Positions 6,382 to 21,165 of a stretch of 29,819 nucleotides of DNA are shown here, piece after piece. The stretch covers positions 1-29,819 of the IMG/VR virus record IMGVR_UViG_3300034152_000099, one strand, 5' to 3'. Below the pieces are notes generated by a model. That model searched no databases and was not told the DNA's origin. It worked only from the letters and a program-made list of their open reading frames with translations. Source of the stretch: a virus. Position numbers and translations under genes: made by a program. Every line of letters begins with the position of its first letter. The stretch's first letter is position 1.

Positions 6382-6469
6382 CTTTGGAATAAAATGGTGG
6401 GAAGTGTTAATCTGTGTAGGATTAGCACTTCTCATCTTAGTTTTTATAAGATGGTACATGTCACTATGA
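6374..6469 (+). CDS. Single-pass membrane peptide, 31 aa (GTG start)
   Basis: GTG at 6374 overlaps the end of the phosphoesterase gene and has GGGGAAA 8 bases upstream. The product is VDNFGIKWWEVLICVGLALL followed by ILVFIRWYMSL: one clear transmembrane helix with aromatic/basic ends. Its TGA (6467-6469) overlaps the next ATG (6466) as ATGA, arguing that both small genes are real and coupled. Confidence 0.6.
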   Translation: MDNFGIKWWEVLICVGLALLILVFIRWYMSL

Positions 6470-6711
6470 GATTATCTCGAAGAGTAATGATACAAAACAC
6501 GATAAATGGTTCCTTTGAATTATTCGGTGGCTTGTTTGTTTTATTAAGTGTGATAAAGCTATTGAGAGATAAGAAGGTGAAAGGAGTAAGCTGGATTCAT
6601 GTTACTTACTTTACTTTCTGGGGATACTGGAATATCTACTATTATCCTTTCTTAAAACAATGGATATCATTTATCGGTGGTCTTAGCGTTGTTTTCGTAA
6701 ATACTGTTTAG
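6466..6711 (+). CDS. Three-helix membrane protein, 81 aa
   Basis: The start at 6466 is chosen for the ATGA overlap with the preceding peptide; an in-frame ATG at 6394 would lengthen it by 24 unlikely residues. Hydrophobic segments at about residues 14-28, 40-53 and 61-78 alternate with KLLRDKKVKGVSW and FWGYWNIYYYPFLKQW. This FGGLFxLL...RDKxVxGVSW...FWGxWNxxYYPxLxQW pattern is a recurrent phage membrane protein family of unknown role with a faint PQ-loop look. Confidence 0.65.
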   Translation: MRLSRRVMIQNTINGSFELFGGLFVLLSVIKLLRDKKVKGVSWIHVTYFTFWGYWNIYYYPFLKQWISFIGGLSVVFVNTV

Positions 6712-8607: not shown

Positions 8608-9150
8608 GTGAAATTCCAAGATGGTCTTAAAACTATTCGTTCTGCTTTAGAAACTTCTCAGTTGATCAAAGATGAGACAATTCGAGAAGCTTTGGAGGCC
8701 TTAGAAAGAAGTAGAATTACGGATATAATGAGACTTGGAGAAAGTGATCACGTGAAAAATGGATATCACGAAGATCTTTGGTATTTCGCTCATCCTTATT
8801 CAGGATACGGGATTAACAAGTTTAGGATACAAGAAGAGAACTGGAGAAAATGTTTAAACCGAAGTTGCTACTTGTTATCCAGTGGTTATCCCGTCTTCTC
8901 TCCTATTCTTCACACTCATCATGCTGAAATAGAATCACCCTACATCCAGAACATGACCAGTGAAGAGAAACATTTCTTCTTTATGAAATTAGATGTGACA
9001 ATGATAAGGAAATGTAATTTCACTGGTTTGATCTTAGCTCCTGGATGGAAGTTATCCCGTGGATGTCTCATAGAATATAGTCAATTCTTAGCTCTCAGAA
9101 AGCAAATTGTAGAATATGAAAACATAGTGAAGAGAATTGAAAATGTTTAA
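8608..9150 (+). CDS. DUF1937-type nucleoside deoxyribosyltransferase-like protein
   Basis: GTG start with AAGGAGAG upstream. The N-terminal ~50 residues are an extra helical part. Then come WYFAHPYSG, SGYPVFSPILHTHHAEIE, LDVTMIRKCNFTGLILAPGW and SRGCLIEYS, the DUF1937 pattern related to nucleoside 2-deoxyribosyltransferases: a phosphate/sugar site at HPYSG, the Asp of the MKLDVTMI helix, and the C-terminal SxGCxxE with the expected nucleophilic Glu. It probably acts on a nucleoside or nucleotide sugar bond. A second related fold lies at 1-180. Confidence 0.75.
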   Translation: MKFQDGLKTIRSALETSQLIKDETIREALEALERSRITDIMRLGESDHVKNGYHEDLWYFAHPYSGYGINKFRIQEENWRKCLNRSCYLLSSGYPVFSPILHTHHAEIESPYIQNMTSEEKHFFFMKLDVTMIRKCNFTGLILAPGWKLSRGCLIEYSQFLALRKQIVEYENIVKRIENV

Positions 9151-9715
9151 ACAAAAATTCTATGTTTATAATATTTATTTTCCTACAGTCGATAAATTCT
9201 ATGTAGGATGGTCTGGAAGATTATATGAAAGATTAAGAGATCATCTTGGAGAAAAGAATTTATTAGGAAGAGCACTTCGCAAGTATAATAACTGGAAAAT
9301 AAATATTCTTCATATTGTTAGTTCTTCAAAAGAAGCTAAGTTTTTAGAGATAGAAGAAATTCGTAAGTTCAATTCTATCAACCCAAACGGATACAATCTT
9401 ACTTCTGGAGGAGACGGATTAGAAAATCCTTCAGAAGACACTAAAAGAAAACTCAAAGAAAATCACCGAGGAATGCTTGGTAAGAATCATTCCAAACAAA
9501 CTCGTTTGCAAATGAGTGTATCTCATTCTGGAAAGAATAATAGTATGTACGGAAAGCAGCATTCACAAAAGACAAAATTGAAAATGAAATATTCTCAATT
9601 AAAACGAAGATTGGAAGAATATGAAAAGTTAGAGAAAATTAAATGTCCTTTCTGTGGATTTGAAATGTGTGACAATTTTGCTACATGTCCTAAATGTAAT
9701 GCTCTTCTGGACTAA
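9143..9715 (+). mobile_element. Free-standing GIY-YIG homing endonuclease gene
   Basis: ATG at 9143 overlaps the previous stop by 8 bases. 190 residues: the GIY-YIG core is VYNIYFPTVDKFYVGWSG, then a helix ending RDHL, a KYNNWKINILHIV strand, EEIRKFN with the catalytic-region Glu, and NPNGYNLTSGG. Two NUMOD3-like DNA-binding repeats follow (LGKNHSKQTR, MYGKQHSQKTK), and a C-terminal double knuckle (CPFCG, CPKC). Such enzymes cut intron-less or gene-less alleles to spread themselves. No group I intron signs were seen around it, so it is called free-standing. Confidence 0.85.
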
Positions 9716-10945: not shown

Positions 10946-11452
10946 ATGAAAGACAACCCTTTACTTCCGAAGATCAAAGATCTTGTAATCGCTCTGGCTA
11001 AAATAAGAAATGACGATTGTGATATTGAATATGCTAAGGAAGTTGCAAACTGTGCTCTTCTTAATTTGAATATAGACTATATGGATCTACTTCCCAACGA
11101 ATCTTTGAGACCTATAGAAATCTCAAATCAGGCTAAAGTCACCAGAATAATTGAAAAGTTTGTTACTTCTACGCAACGTGATCTTATCAAGAAGTATTTA
11201 AAGCTTGAATCTGAAAATGCAGAGTACAAACTTCGTGCAGATGCTTTCCATAAGATTCCTAATAAGTTCAAAGAAGACATCTGTCTGGGATGTGGAAAAC
11301 CTTCGAGTGTAGGTTGTGGATGTCCGGCCGGAACTGGAAGAGCTCTGAGAGATGATTGGCGAGTTTTATTGAATGAAAATGGGAAAAGTGTTCATCTAAG
11401 TGGTACGATCCACGTTCTAAGATCGGGGCGGGAAAGTGCTACAAAGGAATAA
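10946..11452 (+). CDS. Protein with Cys-rich knuckle, unknown function, 168 aa
   Basis: AAGGAGAAG precedes the ATG. The first ~105 residues are helical with a coiled-coil-like stretch (LIKKYLKLESENAEYKLRAD). Then CLGCGKPSSVGCGCP forms a compact four-Cys knuckle, followed by a basic strand-rich tail. Not recognised beyond a probable zinc site. Confidence 0.6.
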   Translation: MKDNPLLPKIKDLVIALAKIRNDDCDIEYAKEVANCALLNLNIDYMDLLPNESLRPIEISNQAKVTRIIEKFVTSTQRDLIKKYLKLESENAEYKLRADAFHKIPNKFKEDICLGCGKPSSVGCGCPAGTGRALRDDWRVLLNENGKSVHLSGTIHVLRSGRESATKE

Positions 11453-11596
11453 TAGAAAAGTGGTCTTAACGGTTACAGAGTTTTAGAATCTCGAAGGTGC
11501 TCGTAAACTACCAAAATCTTAATCTCAGGATCCCTGTAACTACAATAATTCTAATAAGATATGGAGAAGTTCGCGACATCATCATCATACATACAT

Positions 11597-11608
11597 ACTA
11601 TAGGGGGA
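11597..11608 (+). promoter_or_regulatory. ACTATAGGGGGA, resembling the 3' half of a T7-type promoter
   Basis: ACTATAGGG equals the -6 to +3 part of T7-class phage RNA polymerase promoters, but the upstream half (specificity region) does not match and no phage RNA polymerase is seen in the window. It is the only such motif I noticed. Treat as a weak candidate. Confidence 0.2.
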
Positions 11609-11614
11609 CGAGAC

Positions 11615-11638
11615 TGAGAGCGTGAGAGTGTGAGAAGG
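11615..11638 (+). repeat. Three tandem 8-mers TGAGAGCG / TGAGAGTG / TGAGAAGG
   Basis: Three contiguous imperfect 8-bp units on the purine-rich + strand, within the inverted-repeat element. Iteron-like spacing would place one unit about every 0.8 helical turn, which is not ideal for cooperative binding, so function is open. Confidence 0.4.
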
Positions 11639-11691
11639 TGTTACAAAATCTACCGTAACCGTTAAGACCACAATTCTTAATGAGGAATGAT

Positions 11692-12489
11692 ATGAGAAAA
11701 GAAAATAAATCGAAGGATTATATTGATCATCTACACGAAGTGTCTGTGGAAAGATCTGTTTCTGATGGACCACACGGCGAAGAGACATTCTTAGACGAAT
11801 TTGTAGGGTCATCTCGTGTTTGTCCTTCCTGTGGATATAAAGTAAGAGGAACATATAAGAAATGGTATTTCAATAGAGAGTTCTATAATGTGAGTTCTTC
11901 TCAAGAAAAGAAGGCGGCAGTTTGTTTAAGATGTATAAGAAGATTTGAAAATCTTAAAGACTTCTTGAGAATATTCTATCATCTTAATCCAGAGGATAAG
12001 ATTACATTCTCATGTCCATCTTGTAGTACTGAAGAGAAACCAATTGATTCTGTGACAAGAAAACTCAGTATGAAGAATTGGAGAGAGGACGCAGAAGAAG
12101 GATGGATGTGTAAGAAATGTTTCAACAGTAAAATTGCAAGTTGGAATGTAGATGGAATCAATGTTCATAATGAATTAGCTGTTCCGGCAGTGTGGAAAAT
12201 TCATGGACATTATTTGAGAGTTGTAAGAATAAGAGCTCAAGAATCGATAATAAAAGGAGAAGGATTAAATAGAAATGATTTAATAAAATATCCAGGGACA
12301 GGAAGAGAAAGGATTGAATTATCAGTGGAAGATTTAGCAAAAAGAACAGGAATTTCAAGAAATAATTGGTATCATCTCGAGAACGGACATACAAAAACAA
12401 TTTCTCGGATAAAATTAGAAAGTATAAAACAAGCTTTTAGATATTTTGGATTTGAGCCAGAGAATTTATTAAGAAATTGGCAGGAATGA
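11692..12489 (+). CDS. Zinc-knuckle and HTH (XRE-like) regulator, 265 aa
   Basis: ATG at 11692 has TGAGGA at 11681-11686; ATG 11680 is in frame but lacks an SD. Four CxxC pairs are visible at residues 44/47, 78/81, 108/111 and 140/143, enough for two zinc ribbons. Residues ~210-258 form an XRE-type helix-turn-helix (ELSVEDLAKRTGISRNNWYH, then LEN and a C-terminal helix). It is probably a DNA-binding regulator; the adjacent inverted repeat ends 20 bases before its start and is the obvious candidate site, by inference only. Confidence 0.6.
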   Translation: MRKENKSKDYIDHLHEVSVERSVSDGPHGEETFLDEFVGSSRVCPSCGYKVRGTYKKWYFNREFYNVSSSQEKKAAVCLRCIRRFENLKDFLRIFYHLNPEDKITFSCPSCSTEEKPIDSVTRKLSMKNWREDAEEGWMCKKCFNSKIASWNVDGINVHNELAVPAVWKIHGHYLRVVRIRAQESIIKGEGLNRNDLIKYPGTGRERIELSVEDLAKRTGISRNNWYHLENGHTKTISRIKLESIKQAFRYFGFEPENLLRNWQE

Positions 12490-13490: not shown

Positions 13491-13847
13491 ATGAGAAAAG
13501 AACCGAATGAATCCAGACCTCTAATTTCTAAGTTTTTAAATGTAGAACTGATTAGAAAATATGGAATAACTTTAGAAACTTATGTGTTGTTATTTGAAAA
13601 GCAGAAAGGAAGATGTGCAATATGTGGGCGTTCACAGAAAGATTTCAAAAGAAGATTAGCTGTAGATCATGATCACGAAACAGGAAAGATAAGAGGTTTG
13701 TTGTGTGTTGGATGTAACAATCTTGTAGGACATTATGAGAAATTAAAAGATGAAGTAGATTATTATTTAACGAAGGCGAAACATTGTGCTATTAAGCCAA
13801 AATTTTTACAAAGAATCGTTGTAAGTCTATTAATAGTAATAGATTAA
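13491..13847 (+). mobile_element. HNH endonuclease, endonuclease-VII family
   Basis: 118 residues: RKYGITLETYVLLFEKQKG (the usual helix ahead of the core), RCAICG (C42, C45), LAVDHDHETGKIRGLLC (D59-H60-D61-H62) and VGCNNL (C75, N76). This is the recombination endonuclease VII (T4 gp49-like) beta-beta-alpha-metal fold in the short free-standing form spread as homing-type genes in phages. Two relatives lie at 20713 and 27069. The LIVID tail from ~106 may be read-on from the insertion site. Confidence 0.8.
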
Positions 13848-17124: not shown

Positions 17125-17194
17125 AGATGGAATAGTCGGACAAGAATGCGGTTCGTGTCACAATATGTCAATTTTTCCACAAAGGAGAGAGACG

Positions 17195-17932
17195 ATGCTA
17201 CGTTCGAGTGAAAAGAGAAAATTCTATTTGAAATGGTTTGTTGTTTTCTTCATCGCAGCTTTAATCGGTTTTCTCTTCACTGGTGGATATACTCCTCAGT
17301 CGAACGTTCTACAATCACAGAGTCAAGAAAACATTAAAATTTATCAAACATATATTCGTTCTACTGTTACAATTTATGGTGATTACCGATTTGATAGAAG
17401 TGATGAATTGATCTCTGTCGGGACTGGGTGTTTTATTGACAATACTCATATTCTAACTTGTTTTCATGTTGTGAATAGCGTTGATGCAGATACTCTTTTC
17501 ATTCAGCAACATGAATGGACGAAGATTAGAGTTTCAATTTGTTTAGTTGATGAAAGCACTGATTTAGCAGTATTAGAAATAGAACATCCAAATCAATTGT
17601 CTAATTTTGCTTGTTTATCGTTACGACCAGAAGTAGAAGTTGGAGAAAGAGTGTTTATGATCGGCACTCCTTACGGACTTGATTTCTCATTCTCTATTGG
17701 AACTATTATGAGAAAGGATGCTAAATTAGATTTTCCAATAAGACAGGGAATAATTTCATTTTATCAAATGTTTAATGTTCATCTGGTACAAATATCCTCT
17801 GCTCCAGGATTCTCTGGGAGTCCGCTTATAGGTAGTGATGGAAAGCTTGTTGGAATCCATAAGGGACACGTGGGACCGATAGGAGCAGCGATCACAGGAT
17901 ATGCTATAAAAGATTTATTGTCTCGAATGTAA
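17195..17932 (+). CDS. Membrane-anchored trypsin-like (HtrA-type) serine protease
   Basis: ATG at 17195 has AAAGGAGAG upstream; the in-frame ATG 17165 does not. 245 residues: basic N terminus, transmembrane helix ~13-30, then a chymotrypsin-fold domain with VGTGCFID, ILTCFHVV (His91), ESTDLAVLEI (Asp123) and APGFSGSPLI (Ser208), a complete catalytic triad. There is no PDZ domain. DegP/HtrA-type proteases face the periplasm; with an N-in anchor this one would too. Its place between lipoprotein and portal is unusual, as phage head proteases are normally of other families. Confidence 0.8.
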   Translation: MLRSSEKRKFYLKWFVVFFIAALIGFLFTGGYTPQSNVLQSQSQENIKIYQTYIRSTVTIYGDYRFDRSDELISVGTGCFIDNTHILTCFHVVNSVDADTLFIQQHEWTKIRVSICLVDESTDLAVLEIEHPNQLSNFACLSLRPEVEVGERVFMIGTPYGLDFSFSIGTIMRKDAKLDFPIRQGIISFYQMFNVHLVQISSAPGFSGSPLIGSDGKLVGIHKGHVGPIGAAITGYAIKDLLSRM

Positions 17933-19693: not shown

Positions 19694-20726
19694 GACTGTC
19701 AATGAAAAGCTCGTTGATAAATATATTCGCCACGCGATTTCTATTGAAAGGCTTAAGAATAGTGAAGCGAAAGCTATCTCTCAATTTCTTGGGAAGCAAG
19801 TCTTCCCTGAACTCATTGATAAACTATTAAAAGAGCTGGATAAAATCGATCCTGCTAAAATGACAGCTAAATGGGTGACGACAAGATTAAGAAGAATGAC
19901 TGCCGCAATTGACAAACTGATTATAGCTGGTATGGGAAGAGCCGAAGATGCTTTGGTCGGGAATCTCGTAGATCTTGGTAATTTTGAAGCTGAGTGGATT
20001 AAGACAACGATCGAAGATACAATTCCTGTTGATATTGATCTTTCCTCACCGAGTAAAGCAGTTATTAGGACATCAGTTCTTTCTGCTACTTTTGATGATC
20101 ATAAATTGAAAACTTGGCTGAAAGCTTATAAAAAGTCTGTTCGAGTGGAGATGATAAAAGAAACTACGAAAGGAGTGGTACAAGGAGAATCTATTCCCCA
20201 GATTGGAAGAAGGATACGCAAATTAGCTTCGGTGAAAAGAAAACAAGCCGAACACATTGCGAGAACAGCAGTGAGCAGCATTGTGAACAGAGCACGTGAT
20301 TCGGTTTATATTGAGAACAAAGATATTATTACTAAGGTTCAATATCGAGCTACTCTGGATACTCGCACTACTTTAATATGTATCAATCTGGATGGAAAAG
20401 TCTTCCCGACAGATGAAGGACCACGACCTCCTCAACATTTTAATTGTAGGAGTATCGCTGTTCCAGTTATTGCTTCTTGGAAGAAGTTTGGATTAAAAGA
20501 TCCTCCAGCAGCGACCAGAGCAAGTATGAACGGAGCAGTTCCAGCAAAGACAACTTATCCTCAATGGTTAAAGAAACAATCTGCAAAAGTGCAAGATGAG
20601 GTTCTTGGAAAGACTCGTGGAAAATTGTATCGTGCTGGAAAAGTAAAAATTGATAAGTTCGTTAGTAAAGATTATAAACCTCTTACTTTGATTCAATTAA
20701 AGAAAAGCGGAATTGATATTGATTAA
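19686..20726 (+). CDS. SPP1 gp7 / Mu gpF-like minor head protein
   Basis: ATG at 19686 (the TTG at 19677 is less likely). 346 residues, helical N-terminal half, then the MuF domain: AEHIARTAVSSIVNRARDSV, VQYRATLDTRTTLICINLDG, KVFPTDEGPRPPQHFNCRS (the HxNCR end motif). A C-terminal region with KTRGKLYRAGK and PLTLIQL closes it. MuF proteins are few-copy internal head proteins acting next to the portal in head assembly. The gene after it begins within its last codons. Confidence 0.85.
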   Translation: MAKTVNEKLVDKYIRHAISIERLKNSEAKAISQFLGKQVFPELIDKLLKELDKIDPAKMTAKWVTTRLRRMTAAIDKLIIAGMGRAEDALVGNLVDLGNFEAEWIKTTIEDTIPVDIDLSSPSKAVIRTSVLSATFDDHKLKTWLKAYKKSVRVEMIKETTKGVVQGESIPQIGRRIRKLASVKRKQAEHIARTAVSSIVNRARDSVYIENKDIITKVQYRATLDTRTTLICINLDGKVFPTDEGPRPPQHFNCRSIAVPVIASWKKFGLKDPPAATRASMNGAVPAKTTYPQWLKKQSAKVQDEVLGKTRGKLYRAGKVKIDKFVSKDYKPLTLIQLKKSGIDID

Positions 20727-21165
20727 TAAGACAAAAATTTGTCCTAAGTGTAAAATTTCTAAGTCTATCAGCGAATTTAATAAAGATAGACATAGAAAAG
20801 ATGAATTAAGATATGCTTGCAGACAATGTAACGACAATAGACCAAATAAAAAGAAAGAAAACAGGAATCACGTTCTTAGGAAATTTGGTATTACAAATCA
20901 ACAATATGAAGATTTGTATAAAGTTCAAAATGGATTATGTGCAATTTGTGGGAAACCAGAAACTTCAATAAATCAACACAATAAAATGAGCTTAGCTGTA
21001 GATCATGATCATAAAACTGGAATAATTCGAGGACTACTTTGTAGTTCTTGTAATAGAAGATTAGGAACATACGAGAATACTAAGGAAATTTTTGAAGATT
21101 ACTTGAGTGAATCTCCTAAAAGAATGATAAAAATTTATCGACTTTGGGTCGAAAGGAGATTATAA
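20713..21165 (+). mobile_element. HNH endonuclease, endonuclease-VII family, with N-terminal zinc knuckles
   Basis: No ATG is available; TTG at 20713 or 20719 must start it, both within the end of the MuF gene. 150 residues: CPKC (10-13) and CRQC (36-39), FGITNQQYEDLYKVQNGLCA, CAICG (76-79), LAVDHDHKTGIIRGLLC (D97-H100), SSCN (113-114). The N-terminal double knuckle followed by the HNH core is the standard layout of free-standing phage endonuclease-VII-like homing genes. It is wedged between MuF and a head gene whose start is altered. Confidence 0.8.

Follow-up and report, generated by a model that had tools for sequence, protein, structure and literature searches.

The stretch of viral DNA analysed here (the window, 29,819 nt) is a 29.8-kb phage fragment that encodes a terminase, a P22-type coat protein, a DUF4055 protein and a Trypsin-like protease, whose gene (17165-17932; Trypsin_2, E 8e-21) lies between those of the terminase and the DUF4055 protein. 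Many homing-type genes are packed into this one fragment, which carries five free-standing endonuclease genes (9137-9715, 22248-22748, 13491-13847, 20713-21165 and 27063-27467), two of them GIY-YIG with NUMOD3 and three of the Endonuclease VII type. Two other sites of the window stand out by their folds. The intergenic region after a PD-(D/E)XK gene (1240-1360; z -4.6 on the + strand) contains an 11-bp stem, TCTACGCATGA/TCATGCGTAGA, with an inner hairpin, and an 18-pair hairpin followed by TTAGTTTTTA (6396-6436; z -6.8), a candidate strong intrinsic terminator, lies at the start of the called ORF 6394-6711.

The element described below is an inverted-repeat unit that is entirely intergenic, lying between two co-directional genes, from the stop at 11452 to the start at 11680 or 11692. 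The gene upstream, of unknown function, encodes 168 aa and ends at 11452. The gene downstream begins either at ATG 11692, behind GAGGA (11682-11686), or at the upstream ATG 11680; its product of 265-269 aa has zinc-ribbon cysteines and matches HTH_19, HTH_31 and HTH_26 over the cut-off, and it is placed just ahead of the packaging and structural genes. The locus comprises the following features:

11454..11457, + strand: outer extension AGAA, pairing with TTCT at 11674-11677 across a 2x2 AA/AA loop
11460..11476, + strand: left arm, GTGGTCTTAACGGTTAC, with a counterpart of different sequence in seven relatives
11477..11654, + strand: 178-nt interior, with homology to the interiors of four relatives (L101-L104) that is weak for the window, and no conserved fold
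11508..11515, + strand: motif CTACCAAA (CTACAAA in relatives), 30-33 nt past the left arm in the closest clade
11535..11543, + strand: motif TGTAACTAC, TRTAACTAC in most relatives of the clade
11577..11607, + strand: microsatellite CATCATCATCATACATACATAC then TATAGGGGG, in the close clade about 55 nt upstream of the right arm
11655..11671, - strand: right arm, the exact reverse complement of the left arm, from the inverted-repeat search
11692..12489, + strand: gene for a zinc-ribbon and Cro/C1-type HTH (Zn/HTH) protein, directly downstream of the element, also in relatives

The perfect 17-bp inverted repeat named in the original prediction is exact (11460-11476 and 11655-11671, spacing 178 nt), and its arms can be extended past the 2x2 internal loop to 23 nt at 91%. 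This pair is the longest perfect inverted repeat with a spacing <500 bp in the window, the runners-up being 14 and 12 bp, and by our own estimate the chance of a 17-bp pair at 178-nt spacing is about a few per thousand. While the unit as a whole folded better than shuffled sequence (z -3.5 and -4.5), its interior folded no better than shuffles on either strand (z +0.8 to +1.2), so that the whole fold excess lies in the arms. The same prediction had proposed an RNA switch between two folds, in which GTTACAG (11472-11478) pairs either with CTGTAAC (11534-11540) or with the right arm. Both heptamers are present, but shuffled sequence yields a 7-nt match of this type in 7.6% of cases and the competing pairing is private to the window, no relative having one of that length; the switch is therefore not supported. 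A known RNA family was rejected, as the element, whether from the window or from six relatives, had no Rfam match at the gathering threshold; so was a tRNA or tmRNA, since ARAGORN found none in the window or the element-bearing loci. A literature search found nothing on this element.

Relatives were found through the terminase. One contig (L016, 61%) came from a terminase alignment, and the window and L016 together led to nineteen more at 55-74% (L100-L118); the terminase also matches distant records at 43% and had no match in genome contigs. Scans with alignments of the HTH protein gave only further views of contigs already found, the motif pattern search retrieved only L016 itself, and the HTH protein had no match in deposited phages or in genome contigs. 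The Zn/HTH gene and a gap upstream of it were present in nine distinct contigs (the window, L016, L101, L102, L103, L104, which equals L105, L107, L109 and L112).

In all of these (9/9), a gap of 227-390 nt lies directly upstream of the Zn/HTH gene, and in 8/9, the window and seven of the eight relatives, this gap contains a 16-25-bp inverted repeat. The arms are 193-235 bp apart, centre to centre, in the seven relatives, with paired positions numbering 17/17 in the window, 25/25 in L016, 17/19 in L101, 18/20 in L102, 18/18 in L103, 22/23 in L104, 19/19 in L109 and 15/16 in L112. The exception, L107, has a broken repeat only, read by eye as GCTnnTTCGTG followed by a 6-nt insertion in the left arm. 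In the two longest contigs examined, taken whole, the repeat was clearly the strongest inverted repeat (score 20 vs 13 in G002, 75.9 kb; 25 vs 13 in G001, 50.9 kb). The upstream neighbour gene varies (VRR-NUC-like, NUDIX or unknown) and the downstream HTH gene is constant. The arms can be aligned inside the window's clade, and nothing in them resembles the arms of L016, L109 or L112. That the same place and arrangement recur in relatives despite differing sequence argues that the element functions as a control site and is neither accidental nor mobile, and we infer that it is a conserved phage control site.

The sharp inverted ends, which are of the right length, would suit a MITE-like insertion, one of the alternatives in the original prediction, or a segment inverted by a recombinase. 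However, there was no second copy in the window and none in 50,697 deposited phages (blastn), and the relatives carry unrelated ends at the same fixed place, by which a mobile element was rejected. Searches with the copy in L102 yielded only chance-level matches in phages and plasmids, and a 16-mer of the arm had nine chance matches in viral contigs, none with a partner arm. An invertible segment was likewise rejected: the element has one orientation in all members, and no tyrosine integrase, resolvase or reverse transcriptase was found in five records (the window record and the contigs, possibly fragments, of four relatives). A mobile or invertible element is thus very improbable. A retron-like RNA was rejected too, no reverse transcriptase having been found.

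The arms change jointly. The consensus fold on a structure-blind alignment of the window, L101, L102, L103 and L104 recovered the arms, with two-sided changes in 18/22 arm pairs. For the arms and a possible second helix, 89.2% of the cells were paired as compared with 69.1% in shuffles (0/500 as high), a percentage biased upward because the structure was derived from the consensus of the same sequences; the two-sided counts (27 cells vs 8.1 in shuffles) are the safer measure. Sliding the partner by 1-3 columns reduced pairing to 29-43%. Across eight lineages the arms are 89-100% identical as inverted copies, and 151 of their 157 positions are Watson-Crick pairs, 6 are other mismatches and none is G-U, a count in which arm borders set by Watson-Crick matches create a bias against G-U, at the ends more than inside. 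Read on the minus strand, about half of the 6 mismatches would become G-U, a number too small to carry weight. The closing helix covaries, and two-sided change of this kind is also expected of twin DNA sites. The original prediction had set beforehand that an element keeping its place ahead of the HTH gene, with changes that compensate each other, would be a regulatory RNA or an operator, and this is the pattern that was found.

The first of these, a structured 5' leader RNA, would have the two arms pair in the mRNA of the HTH gene as a long closing stem (P1) that ends about 10 nt before the Shine-Dalgarno sequence, with conserved unpaired motifs enclosed by the stem and read by a protein or the ribosome. 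Like mRNA leaders with long closing stems, the element has arms that are always inverted and complementary, changes on both sides, and a position on the coding strand in the leader of a regulator. In L101 and L102 the mismatched stem positions fall at the same place while the flanking pairs have changed on both sides; in L103 and L104 the stem can be extended by a second helix with G-U pairs (AGCUU/AAGCU); and in L102, L103, L104 and L112 the plus-strand interior folds better than the minus-strand one. In RNA stems, however, G-U is normally no rarer than true mismatches, and the lack of G-U in the arms is unusual for a stem on the coding strand. The element also differs from such leaders in its lack of an Rfam family and of an inner fold conserved beyond shuffles, the second helix is weak in the window, and in L016 as many as about 130-150 nt separate the right arm from the start codon. 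On balance, a leader RNA is a close rival of the reading favoured below, a real possibility that we nevertheless consider probably not the case.

The interior is conserved in sequence in the close clade. In a search of 1.6 Mb, a profile built from any four members retrieved the remaining one with E 5e-11 to 3e-3 in the case of L101-L104, and the window interior was the best extra match, at the right place and on the right strand, but at E 1.4. Interior homology is claimed only for L101-L104 and, weakly, for the window, because direct alignment of the window and L016 interiors was no better than chance; the interiors of L016, L107, L109 and L112 have only short words in common with the clade. 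The conserved words are GCTT, CTACAAA, TRTAACTAC and a microsatellite followed by TATAGGGG (the GGGG spacing near the microsatellite was read by eye), and the TGTAACTAC/TRTAACTAC motif lies 18-21 nt past the CTACAA hexamer in 5/5 close members. No conserved interior fold was found clearly beyond column shuffles on either strand (best case 5/100, L101-L104, + strand). A T7-like promoter suggested by ACTATAGGGGGA gained no clear support: this motif occurs only once in the window, and the RNA_pol family had no match, though the control genomes were likewise without one.

The alternating or trinucleotide repeats that precede TATAGGGG in the middle of the element in most close members would also fit a replication origin or packaging site, in which inverted sites around an easily melted microsatellite centre are read by an initiator or the terminase, whose genes lie 1-3 kb downstream of the element. 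Iteron-type phage origins adjoin a primase-helicase gene (P4 alpha/ori type), and the relatives without the HTH gene (L110, L113, L114 and L106) have short repeats, arrayed in both orientations, ahead of their terminase genes:

L113, 6585-6964: five left-hand copies of TTTATGACA, with inverted copies to the right
L110, 8640-9011: TTTAGGTAAAAA eight times
L114, 8207-8692: AATGGTAATAAAAA
L106, 26-602: TGGGAATG thirteen times, further upstream

The first three of these resemble P4 alpha/ori-type origins in that their arrays separate the terminase small-subunit gene from a gene for a DUF5906-type primase-helicase. The repeat differs from phage to phage, and the arrays look like protein-binding iterons and are possibly origins. 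The window's lineage differs in having the Zn/HTH gene as neighbour and a single arm pair in place of an iteron array. Genes run one way through the element, and the origin that the original prediction had proposed to examine by GC skew gained no support from it, as the skew of the window and of three whole contigs stays unchanged across the element, a result not decisive for every replication mode. We consider an origin or packaging site in the HTH lineage unlikely.

The reading that fits best, which we favour while giving it slightly less than even confidence, is that of twin inverted binding sites that co-evolve with the adjacent Zn/HTH protein and bracket the leader of its gene, together forming a cis-acting control site of that gene. 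Each arm would be one recognition site for the protein, the inverted copies, about 195 bp apart, flanking the leader of its own gene, perhaps together with the promoter; with protein on both arms, the two would be bridged and the DNA between them looped out, and the looping would set the phage's level of the regulator, giving autoregulation. Paired DNA sites are favoured because the arms lack G-U, the interior is unstructured and an HTH gene lies next door. Bipartite looping operators of the GalR OE/OI and AraC O2/I1 type place their sites on either side of a promoter or leader, about 100-210 bp from each other, and the element resembles them in having two near-identical site copies around the control region of an adjoining gene for a DNA-binding protein. 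The Zn/HTH protein varies along with the arms. It is 22-49% identical to those of the relatives (the HTH assignment in L104 and L016 being by alignment only), and between L101 and L102, whose proteins are 80% identical, three paired arm positions differ, as do two residues within the predicted recognition helix or next to it. An AlphaFold model of the protein was of low confidence (pLDDT 57). The short-repeat arrays of the HTH-less relatives fit twin binding sites as well, because such arrays are expected of protein-binding sites, but they may be a different thing, given the DUF5906 primase-helicase neighbour in three.

Several observations weigh against twin binding sites. GalR-type sites are dyadic and have further targets, whereas the putative sites here are mostly asymmetric, strictly inverted and limited to a single pair per genome. 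The arms are always inverted and never direct though most lack dyad symmetry (they are partly dyadic in L016 and L104), for which pairing is the simpler explanation and which also speaks for the leader RNA. The Zn/HTH protein would lack other targets, because no further arm copy was found in L016, L103 or L109 and the only one in the window, with 3 mismatches, lies inside the terminase gene. Moreover, two separate sites must change together every time, the repeat of L107 is broken, with the insertion in one arm, and the promoter-like spacing past CTACAA does not correspond to a sigma-70 consensus. Nevertheless, twin operators of the adjacent zinc/HTH regulator, listed last in the original prediction, remain the best-fitting reading; that prediction had thus picked out a real element and named what appears to be the right class among several, its RNA switch and MITE falling away.

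A further reading, which we hold to be doubtful, is that the element is defined solely by the complementarity of its ends, which drift freely between phages, always as a matched inverted pair without wobble, around a conserved, non-folding core. Such an element would lie ahead of a zinc-ribbon HTH regulator where replication genes give way to packaging genes; it would represent a family not described before and act either as DNA or as a duplex with Watson-Crick pairs only.

A repeat that was a lone oddity has become a conserved element, apparently not described before, which an uncultured phage group carries ahead of a regulator and the packaging genes. Its natural arm pairs and their matching HTH proteins form a ready collection for tracking the joint change of a regulator and its target site and, if the RNA reading were true, the element would constitute a new leader RNA family.
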